This document shows, piece after piece, positions 16,173-22,407 of a stretch of 64,000 bases of DNA. A model generated the notes under the pieces. It did not search any database. It was not told where the DNA came from and saw only the letters and a list, made by a program, of their open reading frames with translations. The first letter of the stretch is position 1; the number at the start of each line of letters is the position of its first letter. This DNA comes from Pacificispira spongiicola (GTDB lineage: Bacteria > Pseudomonadota > Alphaproteobacteria > UBA8366 > Aestuariispiraceae): NCBI RefSeq assembly GCF_012926505.1, contig NZ_JABBNT010000004.1:62001-126000 (forward strand), written 5' to 3'. The translations under genes were made by a program, and so were the position numbers.

Positions 16173-17654
16173 TTAAATTGTTCGGATCGGGCGCCCGGCG
16201 AATTCCGGTGTGCCGATGCCGCCATGCGCGCGCGCGATGGTTTCCACCCGGTCGGTGACCGGCGATTCCATCGGGCAGGCGCGGGCTTCTTCGGTATTCA
16301 CGTGCAACAGCATGTGTTCGCCGGTGCAAACCACGTCGCCCGCCTCGTTCAGAACTTCATGCAGGATGCGCAGACGCTTTTCGTCCTTGCCCAGCAAGCG
16401 AGTGTAGAGCGTCAGCTTTTCACCGGCTTTGCATTCCCGGACATGGCGGATGTGGGTTTCGACCGTATAGATCGACAGACCGCGCTTGCGATAGGTTTCG
16501 TCCATGCCGATGAAGATCAGGAAAGCATCGGTACCGTCGGCCAGAACTTGCAGATAACGGAATTCGGTCATGTGACCGTTATAGTCGACCCAATCGCCCC
16601 GTACCTGCGTCGAATACAATTGCAGCGGCTTGCCGTCTTCGATCTCCGTCTTCGCGGAACCGGCATGGGCTTTGGCATAGAAACGGTTTTCCATTTCCTT
16701 CAGCGATTGACCGGCGCCCCAGTCATTTGCCTTCAATGCCTGCAGGATTCCGACAAGGTTGTCGTCGCGGATACGTTCCAATTCACGGATCGTGTATTTT
16801 CCGGATTGCTCGTCGGACTGGGTCGCGATCATCTCAACTAGTTCGTCGGTCAGTTCCGGCACATCCATCAGTTTCGTCCAGGGCCAGGACAGGCACGGGC
16901 CGAACTGGGCGATGAAGTGGCGCATGCCCGCTTCCCCACCGGCGACGCGATAGGTTTCGAACAGACCCATCTGCGCCCAGCGCAGACCGAAACCGAAGCG
17001 GATGGCGTCGTCGATTTCCTCGGTCGTCGCGATCCCGTCCTTGATCAGCCATAGGCCCTCGCGCCAGACGGCTTCCAGGAAACGGTCGGCGATATGGGCG
17101 TCGATTTCCTTACGGACATGCAGCGGCTTCATGCCGACTTCGGTCAAGAAGGCGGCGGCGCGGTCCAGGGCTTTCGGATCATTCTTTTCCGTGCGGACCA
17201 GTTCCACCAGCGGCAGCAGATAAACCGGGTTGAACGGATGGGCGACGAAAATGCGTTCCGGATGTTTCGCCCCGTCCTGCAGTTCCGACGGTTTGTAGCC
17301 GGATGTCGACGACCCGATGAGGGCGCCCTTTTTGGCCGTAGCCTCGATTTCCGCGAAGACCTTGTGTTTGATGTCCAGGCGTTCGGGAACGCTCTCCTGG
17401 ATGTAGTCGGCATCCTTCACCGCGTCCGCGATCGTATCGTGGAAGGTCAGCGTGCCCATTTCGCCCAGCGGCGGCAGCAGCATTTTCGCATAGGCGCGTT
17501 CGGCATTCGCCAGGATCTCGCTCATGATCCGCTTGGCTTCGGGATGGGGGTCGTACACCGCCACGTCGATCCCGTTCAGAAGGAACCGCGCGACCCAGCC
17601 ACCGCCGATAACACCGCCGCCGATTGCGGCCGCCTTTTTTACTCCATGCGCCAT
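16173..17654 (-). CDS. lcdH: L-carnitine dehydrogenase fused to a thioesterase domain
   Basis: A 493-residue fusion. Residues 1-310 are a 3-hydroxyacyl-CoA dehydrogenase-like L-carnitine dehydrogenase with an NAD motif (AAIGGGVIGGGWVARFLL) and the catalytic stretch FVAHPFNPVYLLPLVE. Residues about 345-480 are a hotdog 4HBT thioesterase-like domain (VDYNGHMTEFRYLQVLADGTDAFL). In pseudomonads these are separate proteins: CdhA oxidises carnitine to 3-dehydrocarnitine and CdhB hydrolyses betainyl-CoA. The fusion is known from other alphaproteobacteria. I chose the ATG at 17654, which has AAAGAG upstream, over 17702. The BKACE and binding-protein genes immediately upstream support the role. Confidence 0.9.
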   Translation of the reverse strand: MAHGVKKAAAIGGGVIGGGWVARFLLNGIDVAVYDPHPEAKRIMSEILANAERAYAKMLLPPLGEMGTLTFHDTIADAVKDADYIQESVPERLDIKHKVFAEIEATAKKGALIGSSTSGYKPSELQDGAKHPERIFVAHPFNPVYLLPLVELVRTEKNDPKALDRAAAFLTEVGMKPLHVRKEIDAHIADRFLEAVWREGLWLIKDGIATTEEIDDAIRFGFGLRWAQMGLFETYRVAGGEAGMRHFIAQFGPCLSWPWTKLMDVPELTDELVEMIATQSDEQSGKYTIRELERIRDDNLVGILQALKANDWGAGQSLKEMENRFYAKAHAGSAKTEIEDGKPLQLYSTQVRGDWVDYNGHMTEFRYLQVLADGTDAFLIFIGMDETYRKRGLSIYTVETHIRHVRECKAGEKLTLYTRLLGKDEKRLRILHEVLNEAGDVVCTGEHMLLHVNTEEARACPMESPVTDRVETIARAHGGIGTPEFAGRPIRTI

Positions 17655-17785
17655 TTTATGCTCTTTCGATACCGTGACAGCCGGAATTCGATGGTCCGGC
17701 ATTCCATATTGCCGGTGGATGGATAAAGCGCCCTGTCCGGCATTTCAATCCAGCCCCCGAATTTCAAAACCCTTCGTATTTCCCT

Positions 17786-19363
17786 TCAGACAGCGCTCCA
17801 CCATCGTTCGACGAGCTTCCAGCCGTCCAGGAACCGATCCGATGCGACCGGGCCATGCGCGACCTTGTCGTTTCGGGCGTCGATATAGTTCAGGAACATC
17901 GGCACGATGGTGCCGCCGTCGTCGCGACACAGGATCTGCATCTCGCGATACATTTCCCGCCGCAGGTCTTCGTTCAGTTCCGTGCGGGCCGCCGACAGCA
18001 ACGTATCGAACCGATCATTGCGCCAATGGCTTTCATTCCATTCGGAGTCACCGGCATACACCGTGGAGAACATCAAATCCTCCGTCGGGCGTCCGTTCCA
18101 ATAACTCAGGACGAATGGCTTTTTCAGCCAGACATTGGTCCAGTACCCGTCATCCGGCTCGTGCAGCAGGTCGATTTCGATACCGACCGCCGCGGCATGT
18201 TCCCGGAACAGCACGGCAAGATCGACGGAGCCGGTTCCGGCGGCGTCGGCGGCGGACAAGGTCAGTTCCAGCCGGGTATGCCCCGCCTTTTTCAAGTGGT
18301 ACCGCGCCTTGTCCGGATCGTAAGTTCGTTGTTCCAAATCCGCGGCGTGAAAGCGATTGGCCGGGGCGATCGGATGATCGTTGCCCAGGGCGCCATGGCC
18401 GAGCAGGATTTTTTCCAACAATTCCGTACGGCCGATCGCGTGTTTCAGGGCCAGCCGCACATTCACGTCGTCGAAGGGCGGTGTGTCGCAGAACATCGGG
18501 ATCGCGCTATGCGCCGTGCCGGTCACTTCGACCAAACTCAAATTCGGCTGGCTTTCCAGCAGGTGTAAGACATGACGGTCGACACTGTTGATGACGTCGA
18601 CTTCGCCGGTCAGCAGCGCGCTCTGCCGCGCCGTCAAGTCGTTGATGGTCAGCAATTCCGCCGTATCGAACCAGGCGCGGCCCGCCTTCCAATAGTCGTC
18701 GCGCCTCTTCAGGCGGACGATGACGCCGGGATCGTGTTCTTCCAGCGTATAGCCGCCGGTGCCCAGACCGGATTGCCAATTCAGGCTGCCGTCCGGATTG
18801 GCCGGCATAACGACCAGATGATAGTCGGCGGCGATGAAGGGAAAGTCGGCATTGCCGCTTTCCAGTTCGAACACGACCGTGTTCGGCCCATCCGCTCGGA
18901 TATCCGTGATCTGGGCCAGCAGCGACTTGACGCCGGACGTACTGTCCGCGCCGCGATGATGGTTGAAGGAGGCAATAACATCCGACGCGGTGAGAGCCCG
19001 CCCGTCGCCGAAACGTGCTTCGCTGCGGAGCGGGACGGTCCACACCCGCGCATCCGCGCTGGGATTGAAGCTTTCCGCCAATTCCGGGACCGCGTTCCCG
19101 TCCGCGTCGATTTCCGCAAGATTGTTGCAGACGGCCAGCATCGCCGTGACGATCGGACCGGACGCAAAACTCGCGGGATCCAGCGAATCCGATACCGCCC
19201 CGCCGGATTGCCCGATACGGATCGTGCCGCCGTGTTTTGGGGACGCCGCCCGGACAGGCCGCGCGAAGGGCAGGGACGAACCGGCGCCAAGAAGTCCCGC
19301 CGTGCCGACGCTGTATGCGCCGGTTTGCAGGAAATCGCGACGGTTCATCCCGTGCCGCATCAT
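17786..19363 (-). CDS. Tat-exported ABC transporter substrate-binding protein (SBP_bac_5 family)
   Basis: A protein of about 525 residues of the peptide/opine/nickel-type binding-protein family. It starts with a twin-arginine signal (MNRRDFLQTGAYSVG, with A-R-A near residue 40), then IRIGQSGGAVSDSLDPA and ALKHAIGRTELLEKI, both typical. It should be periplasmic. No permease or ATPase genes are next to it, so it must use a transporter encoded elsewhere. Lying between the carnitine dehydrogenase and BKACE genes suggests it binds carnitine, acyl-carnitine or a related quaternary amine; this is inference. Several starts are possible (GTG 19372, ATG 19363, 19360, 19348); GGTGGA favours 19363. Confidence 0.85.
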   Translation of the reverse strand: MMRHGMNRRDFLQTGAYSVGTAGLLGAGSSLPFARPVRAASPKHGGTIRIGQSGGAVSDSLDPASFASGPIVTAMLAVCNNLAEIDADGNAVPELAESFNPSADARVWTVPLRSEARFGDGRALTASDVIASFNHHRGADSTSGVKSLLAQITDIRADGPNTVVFELESGNADFPFIAADYHLVVMPANPDGSLNWQSGLGTGGYTLEEHDPGVIVRLKRRDDYWKAGRAWFDTAELLTINDLTARQSALLTGEVDVINSVDRHVLHLLESQPNLSLVEVTGTAHSAIPMFCDTPPFDDVNVRLALKHAIGRTELLEKILLGHGALGNDHPIAPANRFHAADLEQRTYDPDKARYHLKKAGHTRLELTLSAADAAGTGSVDLAVLFREHAAAVGIEIDLLHEPDDGYWTNVWLKKPFVLSYWNGRPTEDLMFSTVYAGDSEWNESHWRNDRFDTLLSAARTELNEDLRREMYREMQILCRDDGGTIVPMFLNYIDARNDKVAHGPVASDRFLDGWKLVERWWSAV

Positions 19364-19392
19364 CAGGTCCACCGTTTAAGGCGACCGTTCCG

Positions 19393-20286
19393 TTAGCCGC
19401 GCTTTTTCAAGTTTAGTTTCGCGCGAACTTCCGCCGGGGTCAAAATGTTGACGTTCATGGCCGACAGGATCGTGTTGGCGCGGGCCACCAGATCCCCGTT
19501 GGACGCCTTCACGCCCTTTTCCAGCCAGATATTGTCTTCCAGACCGACGCGGACGTTGCCGCCGGTCAGAACCGCCTGCGCGACATAGGGCAGTTGCATC
19601 CGACCGATGGTGAACATGGAGAAGACCCAATCCTTCGGAATGTTGTTCACCATGGCCATCAGGGAATTCGGGTCGTTCGGCGCGCCGTAGGGAATACCCA
19701 TGCACAACTGCACCAGAACCGGGTCGTTCAGGATCAGGCCTTCGTCGACCAATTCCTTGCACAGCCACAGGTGACCGGTGTCGAACACCTCGACCTCCGG
19801 CTTCACGCCGCAATCGCGGATGCGCGCGGCCATGGCACGCAGCATGCCGGGCGTGTTCGTCATGACATAGTCGGCTTCGGCGAAGTTCATCGTGCCGCAG
19901 TCCAGCGTGCAGATTTCCGGCAGCAATTCTTCGACATGCGCGACGCGTTCCGTGGCGCCGGCCATGTCCGTGCCGTTACCCAGCGGTAGCGGGGATTCGA
20001 CATTACCCAGGATCAGGTCGCCGCCCATGCCCGCCGTCAGGTTCAGAATGACATCGGTGTCGGACGACCGGACGCGATCGACGACTTCCTTATACAGGGC
20101 GACATCGCGCGCGGGCGCGCCGGTTTCGGGATCTCGCACATGGATATGGGCGATCGCCGCGCCTTCCTTGGCGGCTTCGATACAGGCTTCCGCGATTTGT
20201 TTCGGCGTTACCGGAACTTTGTCGCTTTTTTTGTGGCTCTGTCCCGATCCGGTCACGGCGCAGGTAATAAAGGCATCGAAGTTCAC
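19393..20286 (-). CDS. BKACE-family 3-dehydrocarnitine cleavage enzyme
   Basis: A 297-residue member of the beta-keto acid cleavage enzyme family (formerly DUF849, 3-keto-5-aminohexanoate cleavage). The zinc ligands His47 and His49 lie in [13 protein letters not shown] at the end of the second beta-strand of a TIM barrel. Such enzymes split a beta-keto acid with acetyl-CoA. Beside carnitine dehydrogenase the expected reaction is 3-dehydrocarnitine plus acetyl-CoA to betainyl-CoA plus acetoacetate (CdhC of Pseudomonas). The fused thioesterase downstream would then release glycine betaine. The start is a GTG with GGGGAAA upstream. Confidence 0.9.
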
Positions 20287-20394: not shown

Positions 20395-21522
20395 TCACGC
20401 GAAAGGCAGGGTCGATAGCACTATCTTGCGCCGTCCTTCCGCCAGATCGACGAACAGGTCGGATGCGGTGTCGGCCAATTCGACTTGCGCCAGACCGACT
20501 CCTATATTCTTGCCCAGCCGCCGGGAATGCGCGACCTCGCTGACGATGCCGACCTGTTCGGCTTGGTCCGATGTACCTTGCATCAGGGGAAGGGGATGTT
20601 CGTTGCCGGAGATCGGTGTTCCGTCGATGACAACGCCCACCCGGCGGCGACGCGGGCCGCGATCCCGGATCGATTTGAGCGCATCTTTCCCGATGAAATC
20701 GTGTGAACCGTCCAGGTCGATCATGGCGTCGAAACCCATTTCGAACGGATCGGTCGGCAGCGTCTGTCGCCGGATATCCGCACCATAGGAAATCAACCCG
20801 CTTTCCAACCGTTCGATATCGTTCGGGGCACCGGGGCCGATGCCGAAGGATGCCCCCACCCGTTTGACCTTGTCCCAGAGCGCACTGCCCCGGCTACCAT
20901 CCATCAGATACAGTTCATATCCACCCTGTTTCGACCAGCCGGATCGCGCGACGACCAGCGGGATACCGTCCAATTCGGTTTCCCGGAACCAGAAATAGCG
21001 CAGGTCGCGGATCCAATCGCCGATCAGGGCGGCGGTGACGTCGGCGGCTTTCGGTCCTTGAATGGCCAACGGGGAGACGTCGGGTTCCGACACGGTGACG
21101 TCCAGGCCGCGTTCTTTCGCGATGGCGCCTGCCCAAAGGACTAGGTCGCTGTCGGCAATGGACAGCCAATAGCGGTCTTCCGAGAGCTTCAGTAGCACCG
21201 GATCGTTGATCAGCATGCCGTCGTGATCGCAGATCGGCACGTAGCGGCCTTGACCGACCTTGGTGGCGTTCAGGTTGCGCGGCGTCAACAACTGCGCCAG
21301 CCGTCCGGCATCCGGTCCGGCCATTTCGACTTGCCGTTGGGCTGCCACGTCCCACATCGCGACCCCGTTCAGCAATCGGTCGTATTCCGCATCCGGATCG
21401 CCGAAATTTCCGGGGATGAACATGTGGTTATAGACGGAAAAGGACCGGACGCCGTCCGCGACGGTCGCGTCGAAATAGGGCGATTTGCGGATATTGGGGC
21501 CGATATGGATTTGGTAGCTCAC
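20395..21522 (-). CDS. GcvT-family, DmdA-like tetrahydrofolate-dependent demethylase
   Basis: A 375-residue aminomethyltransferase-fold protein close to DMSP demethylase DmdA. Shared features are IHIGPNIRKSPYFDAT, SFSVYNHMFIPGNFGDP, MWDVAAQRQVEMAGPDA, QLLTPRNL and SEPDVSPLAIQGPK, and the length is near DmdA (about 369). DmdA moves a methyl group from DMSP to tetrahydrofolate. Because the next genes make glycine betaine from carnitine, a quaternary amine substrate is also possible; the sequence alone cannot decide. The GTG start has AAAGGA upstream and lies 57 bp beyond a strong terminator preceded by a structured leader or small RNA. Confidence 0.75.
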   Translation of the reverse strand: MSYQIHIGPNIRKSPYFDATVADGVRSFSVYNHMFIPGNFGDPDAEYDRLLNGVAMWDVAAQRQVEMAGPDAGRLAQLLTPRNLNATKVGQGRYVPICDHDGMLINDPVLLKLSEDRYWLSIADSDLVLWAGAIAKERGLDVTVSEPDVSPLAIQGPKAADVTAALIGDWIRDLRYFWFRETELDGIPLVVARSGWSKQGGYELYLMDGSRGSALWDKVKRVGASFGIGPGAPNDIERLESGLISYGADIRRQTLPTDPFEMGFDAMIDLDGSHDFIGKDALKSIRDRGPRRRRVGVVIDGTPISGNEHPLPLMQGTSDQAEQVGIVSEVAHSRRLGKNIGVGLAQVELADTASDLFVDLAEGRRKIVLSTLPFA

Positions 21523-21578
21523 GAACGGTTCCTTTGCGGCAGAAGGCGGGTCGGATTCAGGTCGGTTAGCATTTAGGC

Positions 21579-21611
21579 AAAAAAAATTGCCCGGACAAGA
21601 AGTCCGGGCAA
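21579..21611 (-). terminator. Textbook intrinsic terminator upstream of the DmdA-like gene
   Basis: A perfect 10-bp stem (TTGCCCGGAC / GTCCGGGCAA, 21587-21611) with a 5-nt loop is followed on the minus strand by eight U residues (A-run at 21579-21586). It ends a leftward transcript 57 bp before the DmdA-like start. It is either the end of a small RNA or an attenuator in the leader of the downstream operon. Confidence 0.9.
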
Positions 21612-21781
21612 GTTGAACAGGGAGGCTTCACGTCTGGGAGACGTAGGGCCGGGCCGATGGGGACATCGCCCGGCGGTCGCTGCAATGCAGCAACTGAAGC
21701 GCCCTCTACATAAGGGTGCCGGCCCGGCTCGCCTAGAGTCAAAACGGCACGGCGGGTATGCATTTTCCGCATGGCTTTTCG
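21579..21781 (-). ncRNA. Candidate structured RNA (small RNA or riboswitch-like leader) of unknown family
   Basis: About 200 nt with several nested stems before the terminator. The largest is a 9-bp all-GC closing stem pairing 21648-21656 with 21720-21728. Inside it are hairpins at 21676-21694 (8 bp, AAT-type loop) and 21699-21719. Outside is a 6-bp hairpin at 21630-21644 with loop CCC, and single-stranded CCUCCC. The segment 21649-21659 can instead form a 10-bp stem with 21664-21673, so two structures exclude each other. A possible promoter is TTTCCA (21812-21817), 17 bases, TGTAAT (21789-21794). I do not recognise the family; it lacks the core motifs of 6S, SRP, tmRNA, SAM-II, SAH, glycine, cobalamin or TPP RNAs. 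Confidence 0.6.
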
Positions 21782-21849
21782 GCGGCACATTACAGATTTG
21801 CGACACCTGCCTGGAAAGTATTCAAATTCAGATATTTAACGATATGAAA

Positions 21850-21881
21850 CGGCAAACAGGGCGCGATCAGCCCTGTTGCCG
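21850..21881 (-). terminator. Hairpin terminator behind terB
   Basis: A 12-bp stem with a single bulged A (CGGCAAACAGGGC at 21850-21862, GCCCTGTTGCCG at 21870-21881) and a 7-nt loop lies 47 bp beyond the terB stop. On the minus strand it is followed by TTTCAT, a weak U-run. It separates terB from the structured RNA region. Confidence 0.55.
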
Positions 21882-21928
21882 GAAAGTCACTGTCTGTCGG
21901 GTTCTCGCCGCCGGACGGCGATAGCTAG

Positions 21929-22333
21929 TCAGACGAAGGTATAGCGGGCGCGCGCGCCGCGTTCGATCCCGGTGCAGATCAAGCGGTCGAGTTCCAGGCT
22001 TTGGCGGATCATCTGCAACAGGTTCAGTTCCTCATCCGTCGCTTTCAGGTCCGATGCCGCGACCTCCACGGCCAGGGCATAGGCGGTCTCACGCAAGCTG
22101 ACGGGAAGCCCGGCTTTCATTTCGCGCAGGATGCGCTCCAGCCCGTCCTCATCGTCCAGCTTCGCGAGGCAGGTCTCTGCGATACGGGGAAGGCGGGCGA
22201 GGTCGAAATCCTGAAACACGGGCAGCGTCGTGACGATCTTGCCGATCGCTTCCAGTTCCGTGTCGGCGACGGAGGCATCCGCGGCGGCCATGGTCACCAT
22301 CCCGTGGATCAACGCCTCATGCATGTCGAGCAT
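21929..22333 (-). CDS. TerB-family tellurite-resistance-like protein
   Basis: A 134-residue all-helical protein of the TerB/DUF533-like family: MLDMHEALIHGMVTMAAADASVADTELEAIGKIV, then VEVAASDLKATDEELNLLQMIRQSLEL. The acidic repeats (ADASVADTE and ASDLKATDEE) resemble the metal-binding elements of TerB domains. A longer frame from 22381 adds 16 unrelated residues; the ATG at 22333 has AAAGGGA upstream. TerB proteins are linked to membrane-associated stress responses, but no reaction is known and I infer none. It is divergent from the chemoreceptor gene pair, with two inverted repeats in the shared upstream region. Confidence 0.8.
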   Translation of the reverse strand: MLDMHEALIHGMVTMAAADASVADTELEAIGKIVTTLPVFQDFDLARLPRIAETCLAKLDDEDGLERILREMKAGLPVSLRETAYALAVEVAASDLKATDEELNLLQMIRQSLELDRLICTGIERGARARYTFV

Positions 22334-22407
22334 AAAAGATATTCCCTTTCTACTTGTATCGTCGCTAAGCGTGGAAGTCACAATCCTACATGAATTGCGG
22401 CTCCGAC

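Follow-up and report, generated by a model that had tools for sequence, protein, structure and literature searches.

The minus strand of the window (the whole stretch of 64,000 nucleotides of Pacificispira spongiicola DNA that was analysed) very probably carries, at 21703-21579, a free-standing small RNA (sRNA) gene of about 125 nt that represents an alphaproteobacterial family uncatalogued in Rfam, has a core related to that of SorX, and is under the putative control of PhaR and of a LysR-type regulator. The anatomy of the RNA comprises a hairpin with CUCCCA in its loop, the single-stranded CCUCCCUGUU, and a terminator, preceded by upstream hairpins with compensatory changes. With its near-unchanging core, the RNA is matched in about two fifths of the sampled alphaproteobacterial genomes (155 of 386) and goes unrecognised at Rfam cut-offs. 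As judged from sequence, the sRNA probably links carbon storage (PHB) to gene silencing, rather than switching neighbour genes. It is a candidate counterpart of AbcR and SorX for many bacteria living in the sea, in soil, or with plants (among them Azospirillum, Roseomonas, Thalassospira, Reyranella, and Inquilinus), and it makes testable the idea that PHB stores act back on gene silencing via a second sRNA besides MmgR. A sequence-only reading of the same DNA had favored a metabolite-sensing attenuator of the genes downstream and had named a free small RNA with CCUCCC anti-Shine-Dalgarno motifs as the alternative; it is the alternative that our analysis supports.

Extent and fold of the RNA

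Folding calculations indicate that a structured RNA exists at 21703-21579 of the minus strand beyond chance. The 241 nt of that strand from 21800 to 21560 fold at -95.5 kcal/mol (z -4.50) and the 125 nt of the putative transcript at -63.8 kcal/mol (z -7.69), none of 200 shuffles being as stable in either case, which bears out the nested minus-strand structure described in the sequence-only reading. The T run of the terminator marks the 3' end of the gene, and the putative 5' end lies near 21703. The length of about 200 nt originally given to the structure was too long, and its 5'-most 75 nt or so are probably promoter DNA that holds a dyad and a -10-like TATGTA (see below).

In the predicted fold, a closing stem GCUUC/GAAGC pairs 21700-21696 with 21629-21625, GAAGC being the start of the conserved linker. 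This stem, closing over three hairpins, was folded in 13 of 14 distinct sequences from the family of the window (Aestuariispiraceae); the sole exception (L034) and one other sequence (L003) ended before the end of the terminator. Enclosure of the hairpins by a stem had been proposed before and stands, but the stem that is kept is GCUUC/GAAGC and not a 9-bp GC stem, and it encloses three hairpins, not two. Since it is invariant in the family, it provides no covariation signal. The possibility that the closing stem is general beyond the family was considered and rejected, GCTTC being present in 13 of 115 loci, which is about chance. The RNA would fold into a cloverleaf-like body plus the terminator.

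All substructures lie on the minus strand. Hairpin 1 (21694-21676) coincides with the PhaR-operator-like palindrome TTGCTGCATTGCAGCGA (21693-21677), which is a hairpin of the RNA as well if the start site is where we place it, at about 21703. Hairpin 2 (21674-21648) has 11 pairs, one bulge, and the loop UCCC. Two stems had been thought to compete for 21649-21656, as in switches; the rival G+C segment (about 21727-21719) precedes the putative start and is not kept in same-genus sequences, and the idea falls. Hairpin 3, ACGUCUCCCAGACGU (21644-21630), presents CUCCCA in its loop (21640-21635). Its core is near-invariant, with one pair being C-G in 61 of 63 sequences and U-A in 2; in distant members of the RNA family the loop varies and the stem varies twice. 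The linker CCUCCCUGUUCAAC (21625-21612), delimited on alignments A2-A4, is predicted to be single-stranded apart from its first base and contains at 21625-21620 the CCUCCC that had been noticed from the letters alone.

The RNA ends with an intrinsic terminator (21611-21579) made of a ten-pair stem (21611-21587) and eight T, in agreement with its first description. A terminator scan of 20800-22400 returned 2 terminator-like sites against 1.2 in shuffles, the other site having 5 pairs. A terminator hairpin was present 3' of the core in 105 of the 113 loci examined. The terminator formerly attributed to terB itself is a hairpin followed by only TTT (read by eye), and it failed the scan.

Covariation and distribution of the family

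Alignment A2 was composed of 64 of 114 usable loci retained after a similarity filter, plus the window. From its 65 sequences, 48 were used to build a covariance model (R1); the other 17 were dropped by eye, and since most of these had no clear upstream hairpin, R1 leans towards that hairpin. Alignment A4 contains 63 of the 64 sources offered, the mmgR locus of this genome (L051) being left unmatched, with 40 picked from weaker R1 matches.

The helix upstream of the core showed both-side changes in 6 of 6 pairs, with 52 double-change cells against 20.0 in shuffles, a value that none of 500 shuffles attained; the number of double-change pairs was unremarkable (6 against 5.5, 292 of 500 shuffles) and only 64.6% of cells pair. 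In the structure-fitted alignment derived from R1, the same helix had 85 double-change cells against 29.5, none of 500 shuffles being as high, and 7 double-change pairs against 6.0 (25 of 500 shuffles). Hairpin 2 takes the position of this helix in the family of the window. Counted in alignment A5, which holds 5 relatives after omission of two near-identical sequences, 3 of its 11 pairs were double-changed; cells numbered 6 against 2.8 (1 of 500 shuffles), and the pairs, 3 against 2.2 (198 of 500), were not unusual. The covariation of hairpin 2 thus constitutes modest evidence. Conservation and compensating changes in relatives, the check suggested by the sequence-only reading, were in this way recovered. 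A run of MAFFT and RNAalifold on 65 sequences recovered hairpin 3 alone and no covariation, because variable stems do not align without structure, and counts on the named structure were used instead. Covariation was also preferred over a count of hairpin presence (88 of 113, against 37.7 in shuffles), because the shuffles of that count were plain and not dinucleotide.

R1 matches the window at 21658-21605 with 66.5 bits, the window being one of its 48 source sequences. The 155 class genomes that it matches at E up to 0.001 belong to 110 of 275 genera; 130 of them match at 1e-8 or better and 25 weakly (E above 1e-8), these E-values being rough and coming from a run on class genomes alone. Within the family of the window the core was matched in 14 of 14 genomes and the full form was present in 13. 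In the exception (G003), the two matches (41.6 bits) are copies of the 3' core next to an integrase, without terB. A DNA search gave a match in 58 of 98 genomes (the genome itself included), mostly over the last 68 nt or less, and the exact 27-nt core occurs in at least 119 genome stretches. Among the matches listed, core carriers were mostly Rhodospirillales-type genera (Azospirillum, Roseomonas, Reyranella, Thalassospira, Inquilinus, Kiloniella, Nisaea, Marivibrio) or bins, and a few were others (Caedibacter, Minwuia, and two bins called Rhizobium). A plasmid collection yielded no match with 181 nt and one match, Tistrella mobilis, with the 71-nt core. Several genomes had two to five sRNA matches, some of them close together (e.g., G015 C29:16372 and 16847; G006 C1:4057373 and 4059538; also G265 and G275).

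The RNA had been called unrecognised before any database was consulted, and it proved to be so at Rfam cut-offs: no family reached its cut-off in a scan of the 64-kb window or on this RNA in the loci of 18 named relatives (the RNA being incomplete in L095). A literature search, mostly without subscription papers, produced no paper that we recognised as describing it. The 59 RNAs of an Azospirillum sRNA survey (PMC7685610) may include it. Here and below, the cited papers are drawn on as far as their available text goes.

Known sRNAs and alternative origins

The closest Rfam family is SorX (RF02784), matched over the whole model (1-73) with 37.4 bits, below the cut-off of 46.6, and with E 3.1e-7 genome-wide, the next match in the genome having 19.9 bits. 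The RNA shares with SorX of Rhodobacter sphaeroides the order of a stem, CCUCCCUGUU, and a terminator; below cut-off, its 3' 68-77 nt match both SorX and mmgR over whole models. We consider it possible, although on balance doubtful, that the RNA belongs to the SorX family as a divergent but genuine member, and not to a separate family. Besides the whole-model match, membership would account for the fact that the SorX model, where it stays below cut-off, mostly hits the same places as R1 (at least 78 of its 130 places in 386 genomes) and matched none of 14 control genomes. An AUGUC/GACAU stem also precedes CCUCCCUGUU in two of four SorX loci read and in two distant R1 members. The genomes in which SorX exceeds its cut-off, 7 of 386, are divided on the matter: the two of family f46 (G294 and G367) also match R1, weakly, whereas the five of family f26 have no R1 match. 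Furthermore, 46.6 bits are not reached here, nor by any of the 20 short distant loci that were scanned, of which the best has 44.9, and context and 5' domains differ. SorX is cut by RNase E from the 3' UTR of ompR-1 (PMC8625941, in the text available), whereas the gene upstream of our RNA is terB-like, and the RNA itself has extra 5' hairpins and would have its own promoter with the dyad and the PhaR-like palindrome. In our view SorX and this RNA have a common origin, which the cut-offs do not so far bear out.

Other sRNA families resemble the RNA in parts. AbcR1 and AbcR2 (ar15, RF02345) are described with two anti-Shine-Dalgarno motifs, one of them, CUCCCA, in the loop of a hairpin and the other in the linker (available portions of PMC5461406 and PMC8844928), and this layout is found here with CUCCCA at 21640-21635 and CCUCCC at 21625-21620. 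The letters of the second motif differ, being GUUCCC or UUCCCCUC in AbcR and CCUCCCUGUU here, and the likeness is one of layout. With E up to 10 allowed, RF02345 did not match within 21520-21930; but the same model matched none of the 386 genomes and none of the 14 controls, so that its silence here carries no weight. SorY, anti-hemB, and the betaproteobacterial toxic sRNA share a linker and terminator with UCCCUG, their matches of 23-24 bits being far below the cut-offs.

The SorX precedent (PMC8625941) also raises the prospect that the sRNA is processed from the 3' UTR of the terB mRNA, which we judge improbable. The terB-like gene (21929-22381, minus strand; Pfam PF05099, 8e-09), a neighbour outside the RNA, does lie upstream on the same strand, within about 1.3 kb, in 13 of 14 family genomes (all but G003). 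However, conserved promoter-like elements separate terB from the RNA, and at E 1e-5 the loci fetched from outside the family showed no terB next to the RNA.

Slightly less probable again is the identity of this RNA with the mmgR (alpha-r8) of the genome. This was our first reading, and it has in its favor a match to the whole RF00519 model (28.6 bits, E 0.00048, cut-off of 41 not reached) and a layout common to MmgR/alpha-r8/SisA-D, namely a weak hairpin, a CCUCCCU linker, and a terminator; the linker likeness, and a model of repression by Shine-Dalgarno pairing, can be found in the accessible text on alpha-r8 RNAs (PMC12559287). The mmgR of S. meliloti is moreover repressed by AniA(PhaR) (PMC8401924, PMC12542648), which shifts mmgR promoter DNA (PMC12542648, both as far as seen in the available text). 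The reading was dropped once a separate RF00519 gene was found elsewhere in the genome at 57.3 bits (C13:741686-741759), which leaves this RNA without a claim to orthology. R1 does not match that gene. The 28.6-bit match is near search noise (the next match has 24.6 bits, and with E up to 1 the search also finds matches in 13 of 14 control genomes), the linker and hairpin sequences differ, and this RNA has extra 5' hairpins. Genes for mmgR over the cut-off were present in 11 of 14 family genomes. A deep common origin of this RNA and mmgR is possible.

Least probable is a cis-acting, metabolite-sensing (riboswitch-like) attenuator of the DmdA-like/carnitine operon, which we reject because the downstream demethylase is not conserved and a riboswitch would stay with its genes. 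The RNA does end, in its terminator, 57 bp before the ORF of the DmdA-like demethylase (20395-21522, minus strand; NCBIfam PRK12486 381.5 bits, below the cut-off of 410), a gene that lies outside the system. Yet over the 3.9 kb or more of downstream DNA inspected per genome, the demethylase was next to the RNA in 1 of 14 family genomes (this one only), against 14 of 14 for the RNA core. No conserved alternative pairing was seen, and the core, an anti-Shine-Dalgarno linker and a terminator, is sRNA-like. No riboswitch family reached its cut-off in the window; the sole leader-type match in 21520-21930 (E up to 10) was a 5'-truncated leucine leader on the opposite strand, with 18.5 of 50 bits. 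Below the demethylase, on the same strand, is a carnitine-use-like operon of a carnitine 3-dehydrogenase (16173-17702, over its cut-off) and an ABC substrate-binding protein (17786-19372) and BKACE-type cleavage enzyme (19393-20286), both below theirs.

Promoter motifs, proposed control, and mobile elements

The reading of a free-standing sRNA gene implies a promoter of its own downstream of terB, and we infer one from conserved motifs. These were counted in 125 of 141 distinct loci left by an 80% filter (29 belonging to L001-L050, the other 96 contributed by the genome scan), taking 260 nt upstream of each. An ATGC-N6..8-GCAT dyad was present in 88 of the 125, and in 85 with N7, against 2.8 in dinucleotide shuffles. 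The dyad of the window (21772-21758, minus strand) is an ATGC-N7-GCAT with the T-N11-A of the LysR-type layout, a putative activator site. The sequence following the 85 N7 dyads has the consensus GCAT-RGC-NG-NNN-T, in which the two best-kept positions are the fifth, a G in 64 of them, and the ninth, a T in 67. The exact VtlR box, GCAT-N3-TG-N3-T, was found at 20 of the 85 dyads against 1.4 expected by base composition, and anywhere upstream in 26 of the 125 loci against 3.1 in shuffles. The window copy, comprising the dyad and the bases to 21749, resembles the VtlR/LsrB box and departs from it at one position. According to the available text of PMC7486931 and PMC8844928, this box is confirmed in Brucella, proposed in Agrobacterium, and also present ahead of the AbcR1 gene of S. 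meliloti. Activation by VtlR is described for AbcR1 in Agrobacterium and for AbcR2 in Brucella (PMC7486931, PMC5461406, in the portions available). LsrB activates AbcR1 in S. meliloti according to what is available of PMC8844928, whereas PMC7486931, in its accessible part, saw no effect there.

A -10-like TATGTA (21712-21707, minus strand) is a putative promoter element, and TATGTA, TATTTA, TATCTA, or TACATA occupies the same place in same-genus and same-family loci. A plausible promoter had been read between terB and the RNA; a scan of 20800-22400 for the sigma-70 consensus found none, against 0.7 in shuffles, and the claim of a promoter rests on conservation instead.

The palindrome TTGCTGCATTGCAGCGA is regarded as a putative PhaR operator by virtue of core enrichment and phasin-box likeness. 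Its core, TGCRNYGCA, was present upstream in 57 of 125 loci against 4.0 in shuffles, and the PhaR operator consensus TGCRNYGCASMA (PMC6201568, from its available text) is matched on the plus strand (21681-21692) at all 12 positions and on the minus strand at 11 of 12, making it a predicted site. In 42 of the 45 loci in which the PhaR core lies downstream of an N7 dyad, it does so at 76-84 nt. The genome has one PhaR gene and two phasin genes, and similar boxes end 100 and 106 bp before the two phasin ORFs (as found with a pattern derived from the sRNA, two mismatches allowed). Across the genome this loose pattern matched 34 times forward and 55 in reverse (89), against 49 and 41 (90) in a reversed control; because the control has as many, loose matches are meaningless alone, and only tight matches and position were used. 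A strict 20-nt pattern, written after the phasin sites had been seen, matched three times in the 4.2 Mb of the genome and never in the control. The three sites precede both phasin genes and an ORF resembling an inorganic pyrophosphatase (C14:443827-443843, read by eye). PhaR-like palindromes are also found upstream of the mmgR of this genome.

Since 68 of 125 loci are without the PhaR core and 37 of 125 without the dyad, neither form of control can be universal. Where both motifs are present, PhaR (AniA) at the palindrome just 3' of the start site would repress transcription of the sRNA, and PHB granules, by titrating PhaR, would release it. Bound to the upstream dyad, an activator of the LysR type (VtlR/LsrB-like) would raise transcription. 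By analogy with AbcR and alpha-r8, CCUCCCUGUU and the CUCCCA loop may then pair with Shine-Dalgarno regions of target mRNAs and repress them, presumably with Hfq. In target prediction, pairing of the phasin leaders to the linker reached -20.1 and -17.7 kcal/mol, which ranks them close to the best of 67 background ORFs; this is not convincing, since any strong Shine-Dalgarno sequence would do as well. More broadly, and quite tentatively, we suggest that this is a core riboregulator of Rhodospirillales-type alphaproteobacteria absent from Rfam. Such a regulator would belong to a superfamily that has SorX at one end and this RNA at the other, and would combine a near-invariant anti-Shine-Dalgarno core, a two-input promoter of fixed spacing (PhaR/PHB and VtlR/LsrB-like), a four-way junction special to the family, and a 3' end serving as attachment site of mobile elements.

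Copies of the core also accompany mobile elements. The genus of the window has a further copy of the sRNA core, situated some 180 bp from the gene of a tyrosine integrase (L031:12394-13590; likewise L032 and L043). Copies of the core were located at L031:3223 and 13772 (G005), at L032:1977 and in L043 (G003), and in L042 (G001). In L031, GTTACTAAATGGTTACTAA-type repeats are found at both inner ends, with an EAL/GGDEF gene beyond. On sequence grounds, the 3' end of the sRNA looks like the attachment site of an integrative element. The exact 27-nt core is also found in six IMG/VR viral contigs (L182-L187), two of which (L182 and L187) have a gene for the large subunit of a phage terminase, L187 having one for a portal protein as well; apparently, copies of this host sRNA or of an attachment core are carried by phages.
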